In this document: one piece after another, positions 44,746 to 51,910 of the stretch
Numbering within the stretch: position 1 is the first letter of the stretch
Layout of the letters: every line of letters starts with the position of its first letter
Assembly: GCA_032027045.1 (NCBI GenBank)
Contig: JAVSMU010000001.1
Span: forward strand, 1,120,646 to 1,184,645
Direction: 5' to 3'
Source of the DNA: Truepera sp.
GTDB lineage: Bacteria; Deinococcota; Deinococci; Deinococcales; Trueperaceae
DNA: 64,000 nucleotides
Notes under the pieces: generated by a model
Told to the model about the DNA's origin: nothing
Databases searched by the model: none
The model's input: the letters and a program-made list of their open reading frames with translations, nothing else
Program-made: the position numbers and the translations under genes

Positions 44746-45533
44746 GGCGTGTTCACACTATATGTGGTAGTGTGTGTCATGCAGCTTACTCGCGAGCAGT
44801 TCGCCCTGATCGAGCATCTCTTGCCGGTGCAGCGCGGCAACGTGCGCATCGATAACCTTACGCTCCTGAACGCGATCCTTTATGTCGCGGTGAACGGCTG
44901 CACCTGGCGCGGGTTGCCCGCACGCTACGGTCGCTGGCACACGGTCTACACGCGCATGAGTCGGTGGGCGAAGGCCGGTGTCCTCGACCGCGTGTTTGAG
45001 GAGCTCCAGATGCTCCAGCTCCTGCGCGTCAGGATCGAGGTCGTCAGCCTCGACAGCACCAGCATCAAGGTGCACCCGGACGGGACGGGGGCCCTGAAAA
45101 AGGGGGGCCTCAAGCCATCGGCCGCAGCCGCGGCGGGCTCAACACCAAGGTTCATCTGGTTGCCGCGGGCCTCAAGCAGGTCCTCGGCTTCTGCCTGAGC
45201 CCCGGCCAGGCGCACGACGCGCCCATCGGACGTGAACTGCTCCAGAGCCTCGGGGTCGACAACTTGCAGATCCCGCTCATCATGGACCGCGCCTACGAGG
45301 GCAACGAGACGCGCTACCTGGCGCAGTCGCTGGGCTTCGAGCCGGTGGTGCCACCGCTGCAAACGCGGCGAGACCCATGGGAGTACGACACCGAGTTGTA
45401 CAAGCGCCGCAACGAGATCGAGCGCCTCTTGGGCCGCATCAAACGCTTCCGACGCGTCTTCACCCGCTACGACAAGACCGACCTGATGTTCAGCGCCTTC
45501 ATCACCGACCAACTCCGTTAGCGTGAACACGCC
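44746..45533 (+). mobile_element. IS5-family (IS427-like) insertion sequence, 788 bp
   Basis: Terminal inverted repeats GGCGTGTTCAC at 44746-44756 and its complement at the right end (11 perfect bases, 14 of 15 with one mismatch). CTAG is duplicated on both sides. It carries one transposase split in two frames. Size, target and organisation fit the IS427-type group. The intact ends indicate a recent insertion. Confidence 0.92.
44779..45521 (+). CDS. IS5-family transposase made by -1 frameshift (OrfAB)
   Basis: OrfA (ATG 44779, closed at 45198) holds the DUF4096-like helix-turn-helix region (LTREQFALIEHLLPVQRGN, GCTWRGLPARYGRWHTVYTR) and the first Asp in VSLDSTSIKVHPDG. The second part is in the -1 frame: GGLNTKVHLVAAGL, second Asp in IMDRAYEGNETR, and Glu in RRNEIERLLGRIKRFRR, ending at 45521. 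The frames meet at AAAAAGGGGGGC, where the G-GGG-GGC heptamer suits -1 slippage. This is normal for the group, so the gene is probably functional rather than broken. Confidence 0.88.
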
Positions 45534-45603: not shown

Positions 45604-45804
45604 GAGACTCGATGGTGGAGCCCCCGCGGGTGCCCTGGACTAGGGAACGACCGCCGGGACCGCTGTAGAAGTCCAATCGGGGGTGTATACGCCGGCTGTC
45701 ACCCTCATACTGCTCATGGTAGAGTAATCTTCTTCACAACTCAGGTGGATGCATGGGGGCTACAGCCAACTGCGCCCTCGCCAGCCACCACAATGGGAGG
45801 GAAG

Positions 45805-47205
45805 ATGAACAAGGCTCGAGTAAGCTTGGTCCTCGGAGCGGTGCTGGCCCTGGTGCTGGCGGCGTGCAACTCGGTACAGGAGAGCGGGGCGCTCGAGGCG
45901 CAGGCCAGCAAGGGGAACCTGCGCCTCAACGTGCTCCTCAACACCGACGCCAGCCCGCAGGTGCTGGCCGAACTCGGGCGCTACGGGCAGGTGCGCGACG
46001 TGCTCGAGGCCATCGACGGCGTCACCATGAATGCCAAGGCCGACCAGCTCCCGGCAATCCGGGCGCTGCCCTTCGTCGCCGCGGCCAACCCCGACGCCGA
46101 GCGCTACGCCGCACCCATCGACACGGTGGCCGCCACCGACTTCACGAACGGTTTGAGCACTTGGGACCAGGACGCGATCAACGTAACCGACTTTGGCACT
46201 CTCGATCGCCAAGTCGAGTTCGCGGGCTCTGGAGTCTATGTCGCCGTGGTGGACACCGGCCTGGTGGACAGCTGGCGGCAGTTCTTCCCTCAAGAGCGCA
46301 TTGCCGTGGAGTACGCCAAATCGTTCGGCGGTGGTGGTGGGGAACGCGGCAAGGTCTCCGAGCAGCCCAACAAGTGGGAGCACGACACGAACAGCCACGG
46401 CACCCACGTGACCAGCACCATCCTGGGCTTCAGTCGGCTCGGCACGCCGATCAACGGCACGGCACCCATGGCGACCGTCATCCCGGTCAAGGTGCTGAAC
46501 CAGAACGGCTCGGGCTGGTCGTCGGTGGTGGCGGCAGGTATCGAGTACGTTGGCGATCTCAAGGCAGGACCCCTCAAGGATTCGCCAGTCGTCATCAACA
46601 TGAGCCTGGGTGGCCCGGCGCTGGACGCCATGGAGCAAGCAGCCATCGACTATGCCATCGAGCAGGGCGTCATCATCGTCGCCTCGGCGGGCAACAGCGG
46701 TGAGGCGGGCATGGGCTACCCCGGCGCCTACCCGCCGGTCATTTCGGTTGCCGCCTCTGGTTGGGTCGGGGAGTGGACGCAAGCGAGCTGGTGGTACAAG
46801 AAAGACGTTCCTGACCCCACGGACCCGGAAGACTTCTACATCACCGACTTCTCGAGCCGCGAACTCGCGGGGCAGGATCTCGATGTGGCCGCGCCGGGCT
46901 CTTGGATCGTCGGTCCGTACAAGCTGAACAGCGGCAACACGCCCAGTTACTACTACTTGGGTGGCACCAGCATGGCGAGCCCCCACGTCGCCGGCATCGC
47001 GGCGCTGATGATGGAGAAGAACGGGAGCCTGACGCAAGCTGAGGTCGAGACCATCCTCGAGGGCTCGGCCATCCCTCTGGCTGCCGGCTGCCGCACGATC
47101 ACCGGACCCACGGGTGCAACGGAAGATGTCTGCTGGGGGACCGACGCCACCGGCGCCGGTCTCGCCACCGCGGACGCGGCACTGGCGGCTACGTCTACGC
47201 CGTAA
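45805..47205 (+). CDS. Secreted lipoprotein subtilase (S8 peptidase)
   Basis: A 466-residue serine protease. A lipoprotein signal peptide (MNKARVSLVLGAVLALVLAAC) gives a lipidated Cys at residue 21, so it stays on the cell surface. A propeptide of about 110 residues (LRLNVLLNTDASPQVLAELG, inhibitor I9-like) precedes the catalytic domain with D150 (VAVVDTG), H198 (SHGTHV) and S389 (GTSMASPHVAG). GGGAGGG precedes the ATG at 45805, which was preferred over an in-frame ATG 60 bases earlier because it starts the signal peptide. It stands alone after the pilus island with its own terminator. Confidence 0.94.
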   Translation: MNKARVSLVLGAVLALVLAACNSVQESGALEAQASKGNLRLNVLLNTDASPQVLAELGRYGQVRDVLEAIDGVTMNAKADQLPAIRALPFVAAANPDAERYAAPIDTVAATDFTNGLSTWDQDAINVTDFGTLDRQVEFAGSGVYVAVVDTGLVDSWRQFFPQERIAVEYAKSFGGGGGERGKVSEQPNKWEHDTNSHGTHVTSTILGFSRLGTPINGTAPMATVIPVKVLNQNGSGWSSVVAAGIEYVGDLKAGPLKDSPVVINMSLGGPALDAMEQAAIDYAIEQGVIIVASAGNSGEAGMGYPGAYPPVISVAASGWVGEWTQASWWYKKDVPDPTDPEDFYITDFSSRELAGQDLDVAAPGSWIVGPYKLNSGNTPSYYYLGGTSMASPHVAGIAALMMEKNGSLTQAEVETILEGSAIPLAAGCRTITGPTGATEDVCWGTDATGAGLATADAALAATSTP

Positions 47206-47485: not shown

Positions 47486-48823
47486 TCACGCCGGCAGGAA
47501 CTCCACCGTCACGCTGAAGCCCTCGCCGGGCGCACTCTCGATCCGCCAGGCGGCGCCGTGCCACTCCACCACCCGCTTGACGATCGCCAAGCCCAACCCG
47601 CTGCCCTGGTGGCCGGAGGGCGCCGCGCGGCCGCGCGCCGGGTCGGGACGGTAAAAGGGCTCGCCCAGCCGCGCCACCTCTGCCGCGGCCACGCCGGGGC
47701 CCGAGTCACTCACCCGGAGCACGGCGCCGCCGCCCGGACCGCGCCAGCATGCCAGCTCGGTGGGGGCGCCGCCGCCGTGGTAGGCGGCGTTCTCGAGCAG
47801 GTTGGTGAGGAGCTGCGTCAGCAGCAACGGGTCGCCGCGCACCGGCGGCGTGTCGGGGGCAAGGTCGGCGGTGAGGAGGGCCCCCGGTCGCGCTTCGCGC
47901 GCCGCGTCTACCGCGGCGTTCGCCAGCGCCGGCAGGTCGACTTCCACCAGCTTGGTGGGCGCGTGATCTTGCGCCAGCAGCAGCAGGTGATCGACCAGGC
48001 TGCGCATGTTCTCCACGTCTTGCTGCAACTCGACCAACGTGGCGCGGTAAGCGTCCGGCGCTCGCGGCCGCGCGAGGGCGCCCTCGATGCGCGTCCTCAG
48101 GGCGGTGAGGGGCGAGCGGAGGTCGTGCGCTGCCGCCCTCAGGAAGTCGACCTCCCGGTCCATGCCGTCGGCCAGGCGCGTGAAGGTGGCTTGCAGGGTG
48201 CGCGCCAGGCGCCCGAGCTCGTCGCCGGCCGCCACGCCCGGCAACGGCGTGCGCAGCTCGCGCGATCCCGACAGGCCGGCAGCGGCGCGCTCCAGTTGCC
48301 TGACGGGCGCAAGCATGTTGCCCGCCACCAGGTTGCTGAGGGCCGCCACCACCAGCGCGGCAAGCGGCACGATGACGGCCAGCGCCGACAGGTAGGCCCT
48401 CAGCGCCACGCGCACCCCGCCCGCGTCGCCCGCCAGTTGCAGCACGAAGCGCTGGCCGTCCTCGCGCACCTCGCGGCTGAGGACCTGGTGCAGGCCCACG
48501 ATGGAGTAACCGGTGGGTGCGTCCAGCGGCACGTTGGGGAAGTCGGGCGTGGCGGCCACCACCTCGCCCTGCTGCAGCAGCCTCACGTGGACGTCGCTCG
48601 GGAAGTCGCTCTTGAGTGCGAGGGCCTCGTGCTTCTCGTCGGGTACGTGGACGCTGACGCGTTCGACGAGGGTCTCGAGGCGCCGCTCCTCGCTCTCCTT
48701 GAGGAAGCTGCGCAGCACCAGGAACAGCGCCAGCGCCGTGAGCAGCAGCACCGCCACCGTCTGCACCACCAGTATGAGTGCCAGCCTGCGGTGAAGGCTG
48801 GGCCGGCTGAAGTAGCGCTTCAC
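47486..48823 (-). CDS. Sensor histidine kinase
   Basis: A 445-residue inner-membrane kinase. Span 1 is at about 13-37 and span 2 at about 144-168, and between them about 105 residues form the periplasmic sensor. A HAMP domain ([14 protein letters not shown]...[17 protein letters not shown]) leads to the phosphoacceptor H233 in [14 protein letters not shown], then the ATPase boxes [16 protein letters not shown] and [10 protein letters not shown]. The GTG start overlaps the response regulator stop (GTGA). It is the last gene of the six-gene operon that begins at 51837 and most likely controls that operon. The signal is unknown. Confidence 0.93.
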
Positions 48824-49479
48824 GACACCCGGTACCCTCTGCCGCGGGCGCTCTCCACGGCGGAGTCCGCCAGCTTCTGGCGCAAGTAGCGCACGTAGAC
48901 GTCCACCACCCGGGGCTCGCCGAAGAAGTCGGGGCCCCACACCCGGTCGAGCAGTTCCTGCCGCGTGAACCAGCGCTGCGGGGCCCGCAACAGCGCCTCC
49001 AGCAGGTCGTACTCCCTGCCCGTGAGGCCAACCTCGTCACCGTCCCAGAAGACGCGGCGCGCCTTCGCCTCCAGCGTGCCGCGGCCTCCGGCGAAGCTCA
49101 CGTCGTCGGTGGCGCGCTCCAGGCTGCGTCTCACCAGCGCCCGCAGCGTGGCCTGCAGCTCCGCCAGCGCGAACGGCTTCACCAGGTAGGCGTCGCCACC
49201 AAGGTCCAGGCCGGCCACGCGGTCGGCCAGGGCGCCCCTAGCGGTGAGGAACACGATGGGCGTGGTGACGCCCTCCTCCCGCAGGGTGCGGCCCAGCTCG
49301 AAGCCGTCCAGGCCCGGCAGCATGACGTCGAGGATCATCGCGTCGAAATCGCCGGCCCTGGCGCTCTCCAGGCCGGAGTGGCCGTCGGAGTTCCACGTCA
49401 CGTGGTGGCCGGCCTCCTCGAGCGCAGTGAGCAAGGGAGCGGCGATCCGCGGGTCGTCCTCGACGAGCAGGAGCCTCAT
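48820..49479 (-). CDS. OmpR-family response regulator
   Basis: A 219-residue DNA-binding regulator. The receiver domain has acidic residues E7-D8-D9 and phosphoacceptor D51 in [12 protein letters not shown], with the conserved Thr and Lys in FLTARG and LVKPFA. The C-terminal winged helix ([24 protein letters not shown]...[13 protein letters not shown]) is OmpR/PhoB-type. Such regulators bind pairs of short direct repeats 11 bp apart, and one such pair (GGTTA-N6-GGTTA) lies upstream of the operon at 51872-51887. It is 22 bp after the ferric-reductase-like gene and overlaps the kinase gene. Confidence 0.94.
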
Positions 49480-49501
49480 GCGCGCGCCTCCTGCTTCAAG
49501 T

Positions 49502-50140
49502 CTACGGCGCCTTGGCGGGCGCGCGGCGCCCCTCCACCATGCGGATGGCGAACGTGAAGGCCACCAGGGTGACGGCGCCGAGGTAGGCCCAACCCAGGCG
49601 GTCGCTGCCCACCAGCACGCCGTGCAGGGTGCCGGCCACGAAGGCGGGGTAGGCCAGAAGGTGGAGCAGCTTGACCCACTTAGCGGGCAGCTTGCGGCGC
49701 CACGCGAAGGTGAGGAACGGCGCCAGCATGAAGTAGCTCGCCACCGTTCCGAGCCCCATGGCGAAGGGCGAGAAGGTGGCCATGCCCGGCACCAGCACGC
49801 CGACCAGCGGCTGGGAGTGAGTGGTTCCTACCAACGACAACGCCACGTGGACGGCCACCAACACCAGCCCACTTCCGGCGGTGAGGCCGTGCCAGCCGTA
49901 CTGCAGCGGCTTGGCGAGCCAAGGCGGCGGCGTGAACCGCGCCGACAGCAACGCACCCGAGGCCACGCTCAACGCCAGCAGCAGGTAGCCGATCACTCCC
50001 GTCAGGCGCAGGAACGCCCACACCCAGGCGCTCGGCGCCAGGCCGGCGTACGCCAGCAGCCAGAAGGCGCCCAGGGCCACCACGGGCCCCCACAGGAGGT
50101 AACGGTTAACTTGCGGGTACGAAACTACTGGCAGCGCCAT
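49502..50140 (-). CDS. Ferric-reductase-like haem membrane protein
   Basis: A 212-residue integral membrane protein with six predicted spans. It has His residues in the pattern [21 protein letters not shown] and [22 protein letters not shown], as in the ferric reductase/MsrQ (YedZ) domain, where four His bind two haems across the membrane. It has no flavin or NADPH domain of its own, so electrons must come from a partner. The ApbE gene directly upstream overlaps it by 35 bases and suggests a covalently bound flavin nearby. Confidence 0.82.
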
Positions 50141-51050
50141 GCGCTACTCCTCTCACATCTTGTTCGAAGACGTCACCGGCGCGGTCGACCACCCACGCCC
50201 TTTCCACCTGCAGGGCGGCGGGCACCGGGGCCCCGAAGAGCAGCAACTTGGTAGCTACTTCCGCGCGTTTGAGCGAGCGGCCTACCACGGTGGCCTGCAC
50301 CCAAGGCGATTCGCTCGGCCTGCCGGTGCGCGGGTCGATGAGGTGATGGGCGCCGCGCCAGGCGCGCCGAGCCACGCTGGAGGTGGCCACTCCCCACCTG
50401 CCCGGTGGGAGCGTGAGATGCCACTCCTCGGCGCCTCCCAGCAAGTTCACCTCCGTTGCCTGTCGCGAGTCGACGAGCACGTCCCCACCGGCGTCGATGA
50501 TCACGTCGTGGCGACCAGCGGCGACGCGCTCCACCGCCCAGCCCTTGGCGGTGCCGCCGAGGTCGATGGCGGCGCCCGCCGGGAGCACTACCTCGCTCGG
50601 CGAAAGCCGCAACTGGCTGATGCCGGGTACGGCCGGCTGTTCGCCCTGCCCCTGCTCCCAACCGGCGCCCCGGCCGGCACCCTCCGTCCAGCTCTGGCGG
50701 TAACCGTGCCACTCCAACAGTCGGCCGATGAGCGGCGTCACCAGGCCATCCGACAGCCTGCAGGCCTCCACGGCCCACGCCAGCGCCTCGAGGAGCACGG
50801 GCTCCGGGTCGCTCAGCTTGCCGGCGCGGTTGAGTTGCGTGACGGGCGACTCGTGAAAGCGCGTCAAGCCTGTCTCCAGGCGGCGCAGCTCGGCGGCCAT
50901 CTCGCGTGCCGGCCCGTAATGCCCTTGTGCCTCGATGACGACCGTGGTCCCCATGGCGTTGAAACTCAAGCTGGTTTTGGAGCCGGTCGTGGCGCGAGGG
51001 TGGACTCCAGGGAGGCGCCGGTAGGATCTTGCCGTCTGCTGGTCGGTCAT
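50106..51050 (-). CDS. apbE: FAD:protein FMN transferase (ApbE)
   Basis: Attaches FMN covalently to Thr/Ser of exported proteins. The 314-residue protein has the ApbE core: LSFNAMGTTVVIEAQG, RFHESPVTQLNRAG, the AIDLGGTAKGWAVERV magnesium/FAD-site, IIDAGGDVLV and HHLIDPRTGRPS. Most ApbE proteins are lipoproteins or exported, but no signal peptide is visible in the chosen start (51050, ATG overlapping the previous stop), so it may act in the cytoplasm or use a short anchor. No clear FMN-binding-domain substrate is encoded in the window. Confidence 0.92.
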   Translation of the reverse strand: MTDQQTARSYRRLPGVHPRATTGSKTSLSFNAMGTTVVIEAQGHYGPAREMAAELRRLETGLTRFHESPVTQLNRAGKLSDPEPVLLEALAWAVEACRLSDGLVTPLIGRLLEWHGYRQSWTEGAGRGAGWEQGQGEQPAVPGISQLRLSPSEVVLPAGAAIDLGGTAKGWAVERVAAGRHDVIIDAGGDVLVDSRQATEVNLLGGAEEWHLTLPPGRWGVATSSVARRAWRGAHHLIDPRTGRPSESPWVQATVVGRSLKRAEVATKLLLFGAPVPAALQVERAWVVDRAGDVFEQDVRGVAHGAASSFVPAS

Positions 51051-51379
51051 GAGGCGCGCGTCGACGCCTTCGCCGAACGCGATCTGCCCGGCGCCAAGGT
51101 CACACGGGTCCCGAGTTGGGCTTGTGACGCGGAGTTGAGCGCCAGGCTCGGATAGACGGCCATCACTCGACCGGACGTGTCCACCACCACCAACTGGGTG
51201 GGCGACGCGGCCTGTACAGGGCTCGCCTGCGCGCGCAGCAGTTGCCAAGTGGCGCCCGCGCCCACGCCGATCAGGGCGGCGAGCAGCCAGGTGGTCGAGG
51301 CGGCCTTGTCGAACTTGGGGCGCCGCCCGGGCTTGGGCCGGACCGGCGCGGCCGTGGGTTTGGCCTCGCCCGGCGTCAT
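51047..51379 (-). CDS. Single-span protein of the apbE operon, unknown
   Basis: A 110-residue protein with a basic Pro/Lys-rich start (TPGEAKPTAAPVRPKPGRRP), one membrane span (about 29-48, TTWLLAALIGVGAGATW) and an extracytoplasmic tail of about 60 residues (QLVVVDTSGRVMAVYPSLAL). I do not recognise it. Its start overlaps the preceding Asp/His-rich gene and its end overlaps apbE, both ATGA, so it is tightly coupled to both. It may be an anchor or an electron-transfer partner. Confidence 0.7.
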   Translation of the reverse strand: MTPGEAKPTAAPVRPKPGRRPKFDKAASTTWLLAALIGVGAGATWQLLRAQASPVQAASPTQLVVVDTSGRVMAVYPSLALNSASQAQLGTRVTLAPGRSRSAKASTRAS

Positions 51380-51837
51380 TCGGCACTCCGGAAGTTCGCG
51401 ATCGTCGTGATCAGGCCCTGGACCAAGGAACCCACTTCGGTCCGGTTCTCGTGGTCGTCGTGATGGTCGTCATCGTCGTCGTGCTTGGACTTGCGGTCCT
51501 TCGACTCCTTCTTGTCGTGGTCCTTATCGTGGTCCTTGTCGCGCTTCTCGTCGTGGTCCTTGTCGTGCTCGTCGTCATCGTGGTCGTCATCGTCATCGTC
51601 TTCGTAATAGGCGTAGTCGTCGACGTAGCCGTCTCCGTAGATGCCGGCGTAGGCGTCGGGGGAGATGGTCAGGGTGCCGTCGGGTCCGGTGGGCAGGGGC
51701 AGCGCCGTTCCACCGACCGCGGAGACGAGCCCCGGGTCGACTGCCTGCGAAGGCTGCATGGAATCCAGCAGTGCGTAGCCGGCGGCGAACGCGGCAGCGG
51801 CGCTGAGGATGGCGATTATCAAGGTGCGTGGCGACAT
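51376..51837 (-). CDS. Membrane-anchored Asp/His/Lys-rich protein, candidate metal binder
   Basis: A 153-residue exported protein. Residues 1-27 are a signal peptide or anchor (SPRTLIIAILSAAAAFAAGYALL). Residues about 74-130 are almost only Asp, His, Lys and Glu in DKDH/DHDK-type repeats (eleven His, over twenty Asp), a composition suited to binding Zn, Ni, Cu or Fe ions. AAGGAGG precedes the ATG at 51837, which was chosen over an upstream ATG for that reason. First gene of the six-gene operon. No known family recognised. Confidence 0.8.
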   Translation of the reverse strand: MSPRTLIIAILSAAAAFAAGYALLDSMQPSQAVDPGLVSAVGGTALPLPTGPDGTLTISPDAYAGIYGDGYVDDYAYYEDDDDDDHDDDEHDKDHDEKRDKDHDKDHDKKESKDRKSKHDDDDDHHDDHENRTEVGSLVQGLITTIANFRSAE

Positions 51838-51871
51838 GGTGTTCCTCCTTGACACCAAGTTGCGCCTGCTC

Positions 51872-51887
51872 GGTTAAGTGGGGGTTA
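51872..51887. promoter_or_regulatory. Direct repeat GGTTA-N6-GGTTA, candidate regulator site
   Basis: GGTTA at 51872-51876 and 51883-51887, starts 11 bp apart, the spacing used by OmpR/PhoB-type regulators. It lies 35-50 bp before the Asp/His-rich gene start and 24-39 bp before the -10 box of the divergent VOC gene, so it could control both. Confidence 0.5.
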
Positions 51888-51910
51888 GGGACCCCGTCCA
51901 CCGGCAGGCA

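Follow-up and report, generated by a model that had tools for sequence, protein, structure and literature searches.

In a 64,000-nucleotide (nt) stretch of the Truepera sp. genome (contig JAVSMU010000001.1), referred to here as the window, we examined a six-gene operon encoding an Asp/His-rich anchored protein, a 110-amino-acid (aa) protein, the flavin adenine dinucleotide (FAD):protein flavin mononucleotide (FMN) transferase ApbE, a transmembrane (TM) haem protein and a two-component system. The initial annotation had left the flavin acceptor of this operon unassigned; the 110-aa protein is now the best candidate, given its conserved tail and the lack of any known acceptor in the genome. Collectively, the sequence evidence makes it probable that ApbE attaches FMN to the C-terminal Ser110 of this protein, which would act within a self-regulated electron-transfer chain.

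An ApbE without a known acceptor family in its genome

The window ApbE is the sole ApbE of its genome. It matches PF02424 at 98.4 bits against a cut-off of 25.6, and its catalytic HH-I-DP region (HHLIDP) and GGD motif are invariant in eight diverse relatives. The claim that the usual FMN-binding-domain target is not encoded here was confirmed for the operon and, by a search with FMN_bind (PF04205), for the whole genome, in which neither DUF2271 nor NqrB/RnfD was found either; the 110-aa protein, tested for FMN_bind, gave no Pfam match. FMN_bind was also absent from all seven other operon-bearing Trueperaceae genomes and wholly absent from 42 of 59 further genomes with an apbE-haem locus.

ApbE occurs in 9 of the 39 Trueperaceae genomes, and eight of these nine carry the operon; apart from the window's own genome, four belong to the same genus, two to genus g10 and one to genus g11. 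The six-gene order, read in representatives of these genomes (loci L013 to L019, together with tblastn), is kept across the three genera. Within the phylum, matches to the haem protein family were confined to the eight operon-bearing genomes among 111 searched, and strong matches to the 110-aa family came from the same eight; weak carrier-profile matches in G079 (E of 6e-4) and G002 (E of 2e-3, with stops) were left out of the counts. Distant relatives were found with a haem-protein alignment, whereas a single-sequence ApbE scan of the genome contigs had returned none. The initial annotation had proposed that the six genes form one system and had named the absence of the Asp/His-rich and 110-aa genes beside apbE in relatives as speaking against it. 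Both genes are present there, and the order kept in three genera, together with a matching gene set on a Mycolicibacterium plasmid, upholds the proposal.

The ApbE pair A-D-x-x-x-T, which we take to be the metal site of the enzyme, is absent from the window protein and reads A-E-x-x-x-K (E264 and K268) instead; the DUF2271-linked ApbEs of related genomes retain A-D-x-x-x-T. The E..K change is frequent in the tail-linked ApbE group described below but not exclusive to it. As a divider between tail-linked and FMN_bind-linked ApbEs, the replacement of D..T by E..K proved a tendency and no rule, the pattern being unable to score every ApbE sequence. The two g10 genomes (G024 and G025) hold, besides the tail operon, a different, second ApbE of the A-D-x-x-x-T type with DUF2271 and PepSY-type proteins (loci L021, L022 and L023), and L021 has its own two-component genes.

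A Ser-terminated tail upstream of apbE in several phyla

The initial statement that the Asp/His-rich and 110-aa proteins match no known family held: Pfam and NCBIfam profile searches gave nothing usable, and for these two proteins and the 212-aa haem protein no family exceeded its cut-off. In an alignment of six Trueperaceae sequences of the 110-aa family, the TM start is kept and the C-terminal R108-x-S110 is invariant. The window tail ends in KASTRAS and the others in AGTRAS, AASRAS, GYTRMS, ARTRGS and GRTRGS; the [ST]-R-[AG]-S at the extreme C terminus of the 110-aa protein is a variant of the ApbE core [ST]GA[ST]. In the published ApbE motif, D-x-x-[ST]-G-A-[ST], FMN is attached to the final residue (PMC12052999), and DUF2271 and DUF3570 were discovered through its core (PMC8238504). 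Like this classical motif, the window tail has [ST] at −4 (T107) and Ser/Thr as the last residue (S110). The AlphaFold model of the 110-aa protein places a TM helix at residues 25 to 51, and the predicted local distance difference test score (pLDDT) lies below 50 across most of the last 20 residues.

Distant relatives identified through the haem protein revealed similar tails. In a Bacillota metagenome-assembled genome (MAG), an 82-aa protein ending in QTRAS stands directly before apbE, and a Paenibacillus protein ends in QTGRS. In an actinobacterial MAG, an additional TM segment and a tail ending in ITRSRGS belong to the haem protein itself. The haem alignment was then searched against 397 genomes of the phylum of the actinobacterial MAG, 300 of the phylum of the Bacillota MAG and 399 of the Paenibacillus order, and it matched in 83, 8 and 132 of them, respectively. 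For our survey, 117 loci combining apbE with a haem gene were drawn from Deinococcota, Bacillota and actinobacterial genomes. The TM-containing open reading frame (ORF) directly upstream of apbE, available in 105 of the 117 loci, was picked blind to its C terminus.

The upstream TM protein ended exactly in [ST]xxS in 77 of the 105 loci, compared with 3 of 253 C termini of apbE and haem gene products (Fisher p of 3e-50), and the motif lay within five residues of the end in 92 of 105 compared with 13 of 253. Shuffled tails matched exactly 4.9 times on average and 14 times at most, and the internal offsets tried remained at a background level of 3 to 8. When apbE was clustered at 50% identity, the exact tail held the majority in 35 of 47 clusters and the motif within five residues in 42 of 47. 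In the exact tails (77), T or S invariably occupies −4, the commonest residue at −5 is R, and positions −3 and −2 have G, R or A and G, A or R, respectively; many of the surveyed tails literally read TGAS or SGAS and thus equal the published core [ST]GA[ST] (PMC8238504).

A separate set of six named plasmid loci (H9 to H13 and H17) was chosen by ApbE similarity alone; a seventh locus, from S. epidermidis, was excluded for its different context, with no haem gene beside apbE. All six carry an [ST]xxS tail at the end or at most two residues from it: STRTS in P. cellulosilyticus, SSASSP in Alicyclobacillus, TRSGGS in Streptomyces, TRGS in Nonomuraea, NTSRS in Peribacillus and SKASGG in Mycolicibacterium. 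The last of these, on a plasmid of Mycolicibacterium aubagnense from mine wall sediment (L290, NZ_CP122996.1), is a complete counterpart of the system, with regulator, kinase, Asp/Glu/His (D/E/H)-rich protein, carrier, apbE and haem reductase together. On the plasmid of Streptomyces sp. NBC_00637 (NZ_CP109047.1), the carrier ORF ending in TRSGGS (L287:2565-2918) is unannotated and lies between a Met-rich protein and apbE. On the Peribacillus asahii plasmid (L289, NZ_CP085715.1), the annotation divides apbE into two overlapping ORFs, a stop interrupts the carrier region upstream of it, and the neighbors encode TatA/TatC, a ZIP transporter and a P-type ATPase for heavy metals.

The carrier position is also occupied by known acceptor families. 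In two actinobacterial loci, it holds a true FMN_bind protein with SGAT, and a DUF2271 protein occupies it at L175 and L181 (Paenibacillales) and at L288 (Nonomuraea gerenzanensis, NZ_LT559118.1). All three DUF2271 proteins end in TRGS, and alignment of those at L175 and L181 showed that the Thr of the DUF2271 flavin site (Vibrio DAVTSAT) is replaced by Gln or Glu. These swaps bear on the alternative that ApbE flavinylates another protein, encoded elsewhere or of unrecognised fold and possibly the haem or the Asp/His-rich protein, while the [ST]xxS tail has another purpose, for example in membrane insertion, proteolysis or partner binding. Although Trueperaceae tails have Arg at the Gly position of the classical motif, the acceptor role of the tail is read from sequence and the sequence available to the motif search covered about 70% of the genome, such a target fits poorly with a genome that holds no known acceptor family, with a tail that is found again before apbE in several phyla and is often identical to the canonical core, with the alternation of tail and FMN_bind in one position and with the loss of the DUF2271 site where the tail was gained. 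We regard it as unlikely.

Proposed electron-transfer chain and its alternatives

With the 110-aa protein as the acceptor, we infer flavinylation, the direction of electron flow and the metal substrate in the following scheme. Cytosolic ApbE would move FMN from FAD to the C-terminal Ser110 (...STRAS), which would yield a flexible flavin arm tethered to the membrane. The haem protein would draw electrons from quinol or a flavin reductase in the window organism, and from a fused NAD(P)H (reduced nicotinamide adenine dinucleotide [phosphate])/2Fe-2S module in actinobacterial relatives, and would pass them through the membrane to the tethered FMN on the outer side. This cofactor would then reduce an extracytoplasmic acceptor, most likely metal ions on the Asp/His-rich anchored partner. 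The kinase would sense an envelope signal, and the regulator would drive the operon through the repeat YTAAC-N6-YTAAC.

The four His residues of the haem protein are kept in 115 of the 117 sequences, and the presence of two bis-His haems in this 212-aa protein is indicated by the conserved ligands only. The window protein misses PF01794, which its relatives in other phyla match at 28.6 to 32.2 bits; its AlphaFold2 model reached a pLDDT of 83.6. The Mycolicibacterium haem protein forms a fusion with NAD-binding and 2Fe-2S domains, which suggests that electrons flow from the cytosol to the outside.

The Asp/His-rich protein gave weak composition matches only, for example, to ZrgA (14.3 of 185 bits). 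Its counterparts are present in all Trueperaceae loci read and also lie upstream of the carrier in actinobacterial loci; a D/E/H-tailed ORF precedes the carrier in 12 loci, compared with 6 of 3824 ORFs at other positions in the loci, and a Met-rich protein lies near the usual position of this partner in Streptomyces. Extracytoplasmic metal reduction is a plausible role of the operon by analogy; the initial suggestion of metal sensing or metal reduction is based on the D/E/H-rich partner, a weak STEAP/NOX-like haem fold and a kinase that resembles CzcS/CopS below cut-off. The chain could instead serve the repair of methionine sulfoxide in periplasmic proteins, a role like that of MsrPQ, or a different redox enzyme. 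The haem protein is indeed of the MsrQ/ferric-reductase type and the operon has no metal transporter, but it has no MsrP-like gene either, the D/E/H-rich partner recurs and is replaced by a Met-rich protein in Streptomyces, and the Peribacillus locus has ZIP and heavy-metal ATPase genes as neighbors. We consider such a use rather unlikely.

Several observations weigh against flavinylation of the tail and against the metal role. The window tail carries Arg at −3, a Gly position of the classical motif, and has no Asp at −7; many relatives have TGAS or SGAS, yet without the upstream Asp. The 110-aa family is recognisable in Trueperaceae only, and beyond them the carriers have just position, TM segment and tail in common. 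In 13 of the 105 loci, the picked gene has no motif even within five residues of the end; these include two mis-picks (L018 and L019, where the Asp/His-rich gene was taken) and two FMN_bind proteins. The carriers of L072, L074 and L143, from the actinobacterial phylum sample, end in a different, conserved tail that contains Cys, and 17 of the 59 further genomes do encode FMN_bind at another site. The metal role is argued by analogy, and the best PDB folds for the haem model (STEAP2, cytochrome b561, SpNOX and NOX2) are weak matches (E of at least 0.05). Finally, 81 of 92 carriers look oriented N-in/C-out, and by hydropathy none of the 92 tail-associated ApbEs has a hydrophobic N terminus; hence, the tail would either receive its FMN ahead of the passage through the membrane or remain in the cytosol. 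This topology is the main difficulty, followed by the Arg that replaces Gly in Trueperaceae. The tail of the upstream TM protein in L072, L074 and L143 reads ..VPVTTTTVCxSxPSGxxxC[YD], with two Cys replacing the terminal Ser.

No translocation problem would arise if the flavin were on Thr29, in a cytosolic N-terminal [DN]-K-x-x-[AS]-T that immediately precedes the TM helix. Such a site would suit a cytosolic ApbE without a signal segment, and F23, K25 and T29 are invariant in Trueperaceae; nevertheless, the N-terminal motif is absent from the carriers of other phyla, which keep the C-terminal one, and its spacing is unlike D-x-x-[ST]-G-A-[ST]. We rejected it as the flavin site because it is not kept outside Trueperaceae, and we consider it very improbable. 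Ser110 remains the preferred acceptor.

Regulation of the operon

In the window and in five distinct related loci, the first start codon is preceded at a distance of 35 to 39 nt by a direct repeat, YTAAC-N6-YTAAC, and each Trueperaceae operon locus contains one. Direct repeats of 11 base pairs (bp) are of the kind bound by PhoB/OmpR regulators. The repeat is the only match in the window (0.02 expected) and the only one in the 2.05 megabases (Mb) searched of the 2.92-Mb genome; as about 0.8 chance matches are expected in the latter, its uniqueness proves little, and it is the conserved placement that constitutes the evidence. The conserved repeat before the first gene supports self-regulation, and the self-controlling pathway proposed initially is therefore likely, with the operon controlled by its own regulator through the repeat.

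The response regulator is 76% identical among same-genus loci. For the kinase, the nearest NCBIfam family is a heavy-metal sensor subfamily (CzcS/CopS-like). CzcRS/CopRS-type systems provide the best or near-best family likeness of kinase and regulator, but the scores against TIGR01386 and TIGR01387 (169.8 bits, for the kinase, and 166.4 bits) lie far below the cut-offs of 292.6 and 279.2, so that the window proteins are nonmembers by score.

Operon layout and neighborhood

The ORF reading of the window gave six genes in the same direction, transcribed on the minus strand from 51837 to 47486 (Table 1). All six were found where they had been placed originally, with the same junctions. The stop of the Asp/His-rich gene overlaps the ATG of the 110-aa gene by 4 bp (51376-51379), the stop of the latter overlaps the apbE ATG by 4 bp (51047-51050), and the end of apbE overlaps the start of the haem gene by 35 bp (50106-50140); a 22-bp gap (49480-49501) then precedes the regulator gene, which shares a 4-bp GTGA with the kinase gene (48820-48823). 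Of the span 47486-51887 assigned to the operon by the initial annotation, the genes fill 47486-51837, while 51838-51887 is the promoter and not part of a gene. Judging from a conserved M-x-x-[RK]-[RK], the first gene most likely starts at the ATG at 51837.

Two neighbors were recognized by eye. A secreted subtilisin-like protease (45745-47205, from its translation) lies downstream of the operon on the opposite strand, and a transposase-like ORF that is broken into two frames (44749-45521) is probably a decayed insertion sequence.

Table 1. Features of the operon and their positions in the window
Feature	Position	Strand	Properties
Asp/His-rich anchored protein, 153 aa	51376..51837	−	N-terminal TM anchor and D/H/K tail; putative extracytoplasmic metal-binding partner
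110-aa proposed flavin carrier	51047..51379	−	N-in single TM, about residues 25-51; tail end KASTRAS; Ser110 is the proposed FMN acceptor
apbE, FAD:protein FMN transferase, 314 aa	50106..51050	−	PF02424; cytosolic type, without hydrophobic N-terminal segment
Transmembrane di-haem-type protein, 212 aa, ferric-reductase/MsrQ-like group	49502..50140	−	Four His ligands: H84, H98, H160, H173
OmpR/PhoB-type response regulator, 219 aa	48820..49479	−	PF00072 and PF00486
Sensor histidine kinase, 445 aa	47486..48823	−	HAMP, HisKA and HATPase_c; GTG start overlaps the regulator stop
Direct repeat CTAACCCCCACTTAAC, YTAAC-N6-YTAAC, 11-bp spacing	51873..51888	−	Probable site of the operon's own response regulator

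Relation to known flavinylation systems

The operon resembles the MsrQ-like flavinylation systems, in which apbE adjoins a six-TM di-haem ferric-reductase-like protein and which are broadly conserved in Actinobacteria, where NAD-binding domains are fused to part of the members (Meheust et al. 2021, PMC8238504). However, the published clusters typically include an FMN_bind protein and were kept only with a signal peptide on a target gene (PMC8238504), whereas the window operon lacks FMN_bind and its ApbE is of the cytosolic type. All 92 tail-associated ApbEs are of this kind, and the carrier has a TM anchor and not a cleaved signal. The proposed acceptor differs as well, being a C-terminal tail on a small TM protein. 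The ApbE substrates FMN_bind, DUF2271, DUF3570, NqrB/RnfD, Flavodoxin_4 and FMN_red share an [ST]GA[ST]-type motif, and the sites of flavinylated FMN_red likewise sit on an unstructured C-terminal extension (PMC8238504, PMC11334425). Nevertheless, the known substrates are folded domains or multi-TM proteins, whereas the proposed carrier consists of a TM anchor and a tail with the acceptor as its last residue; the open-licence papers searched held no precedent for a flavinylated C-terminal tail beyond the FMN_red extension. The haem protein shares a weak fold likeness and the four-His arrangement with STEAP, NOX and cytochrome b561, but it is shorter, has no FAD/NAD module in its genome and is operonic with apbE. 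The carrier would add a new class of acceptor to the known MsrQ-like/ApbE electron-transfer systems.

We lean toward the broader view that the carriers are widespread, overlooked flavoproteins of Deinococcota, Bacillota and Actinomycetota, in which the last residue of an anchored, disordered tail is flavinylated by a cytosolic ApbE before translocation. In the 2021 survey, 4% of genomes had apbE but no acceptor (PMC8238504), and the tail-linked group, without FMN_bind or a signal-like ApbE segment, would have escaped that survey. If true, a tethered FMN arm serves a membrane di-haem protein, which would account for many apbE genes without a known acceptor and would give a function to a protein family annotated just as "hypothetical protein" or left unannotated. 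Furthermore, a C-terminal tag of a few residues would suffice for a redox carrier, ApbE substrates would need no fold, and a flavinylated chain would somehow have to cross the membrane.

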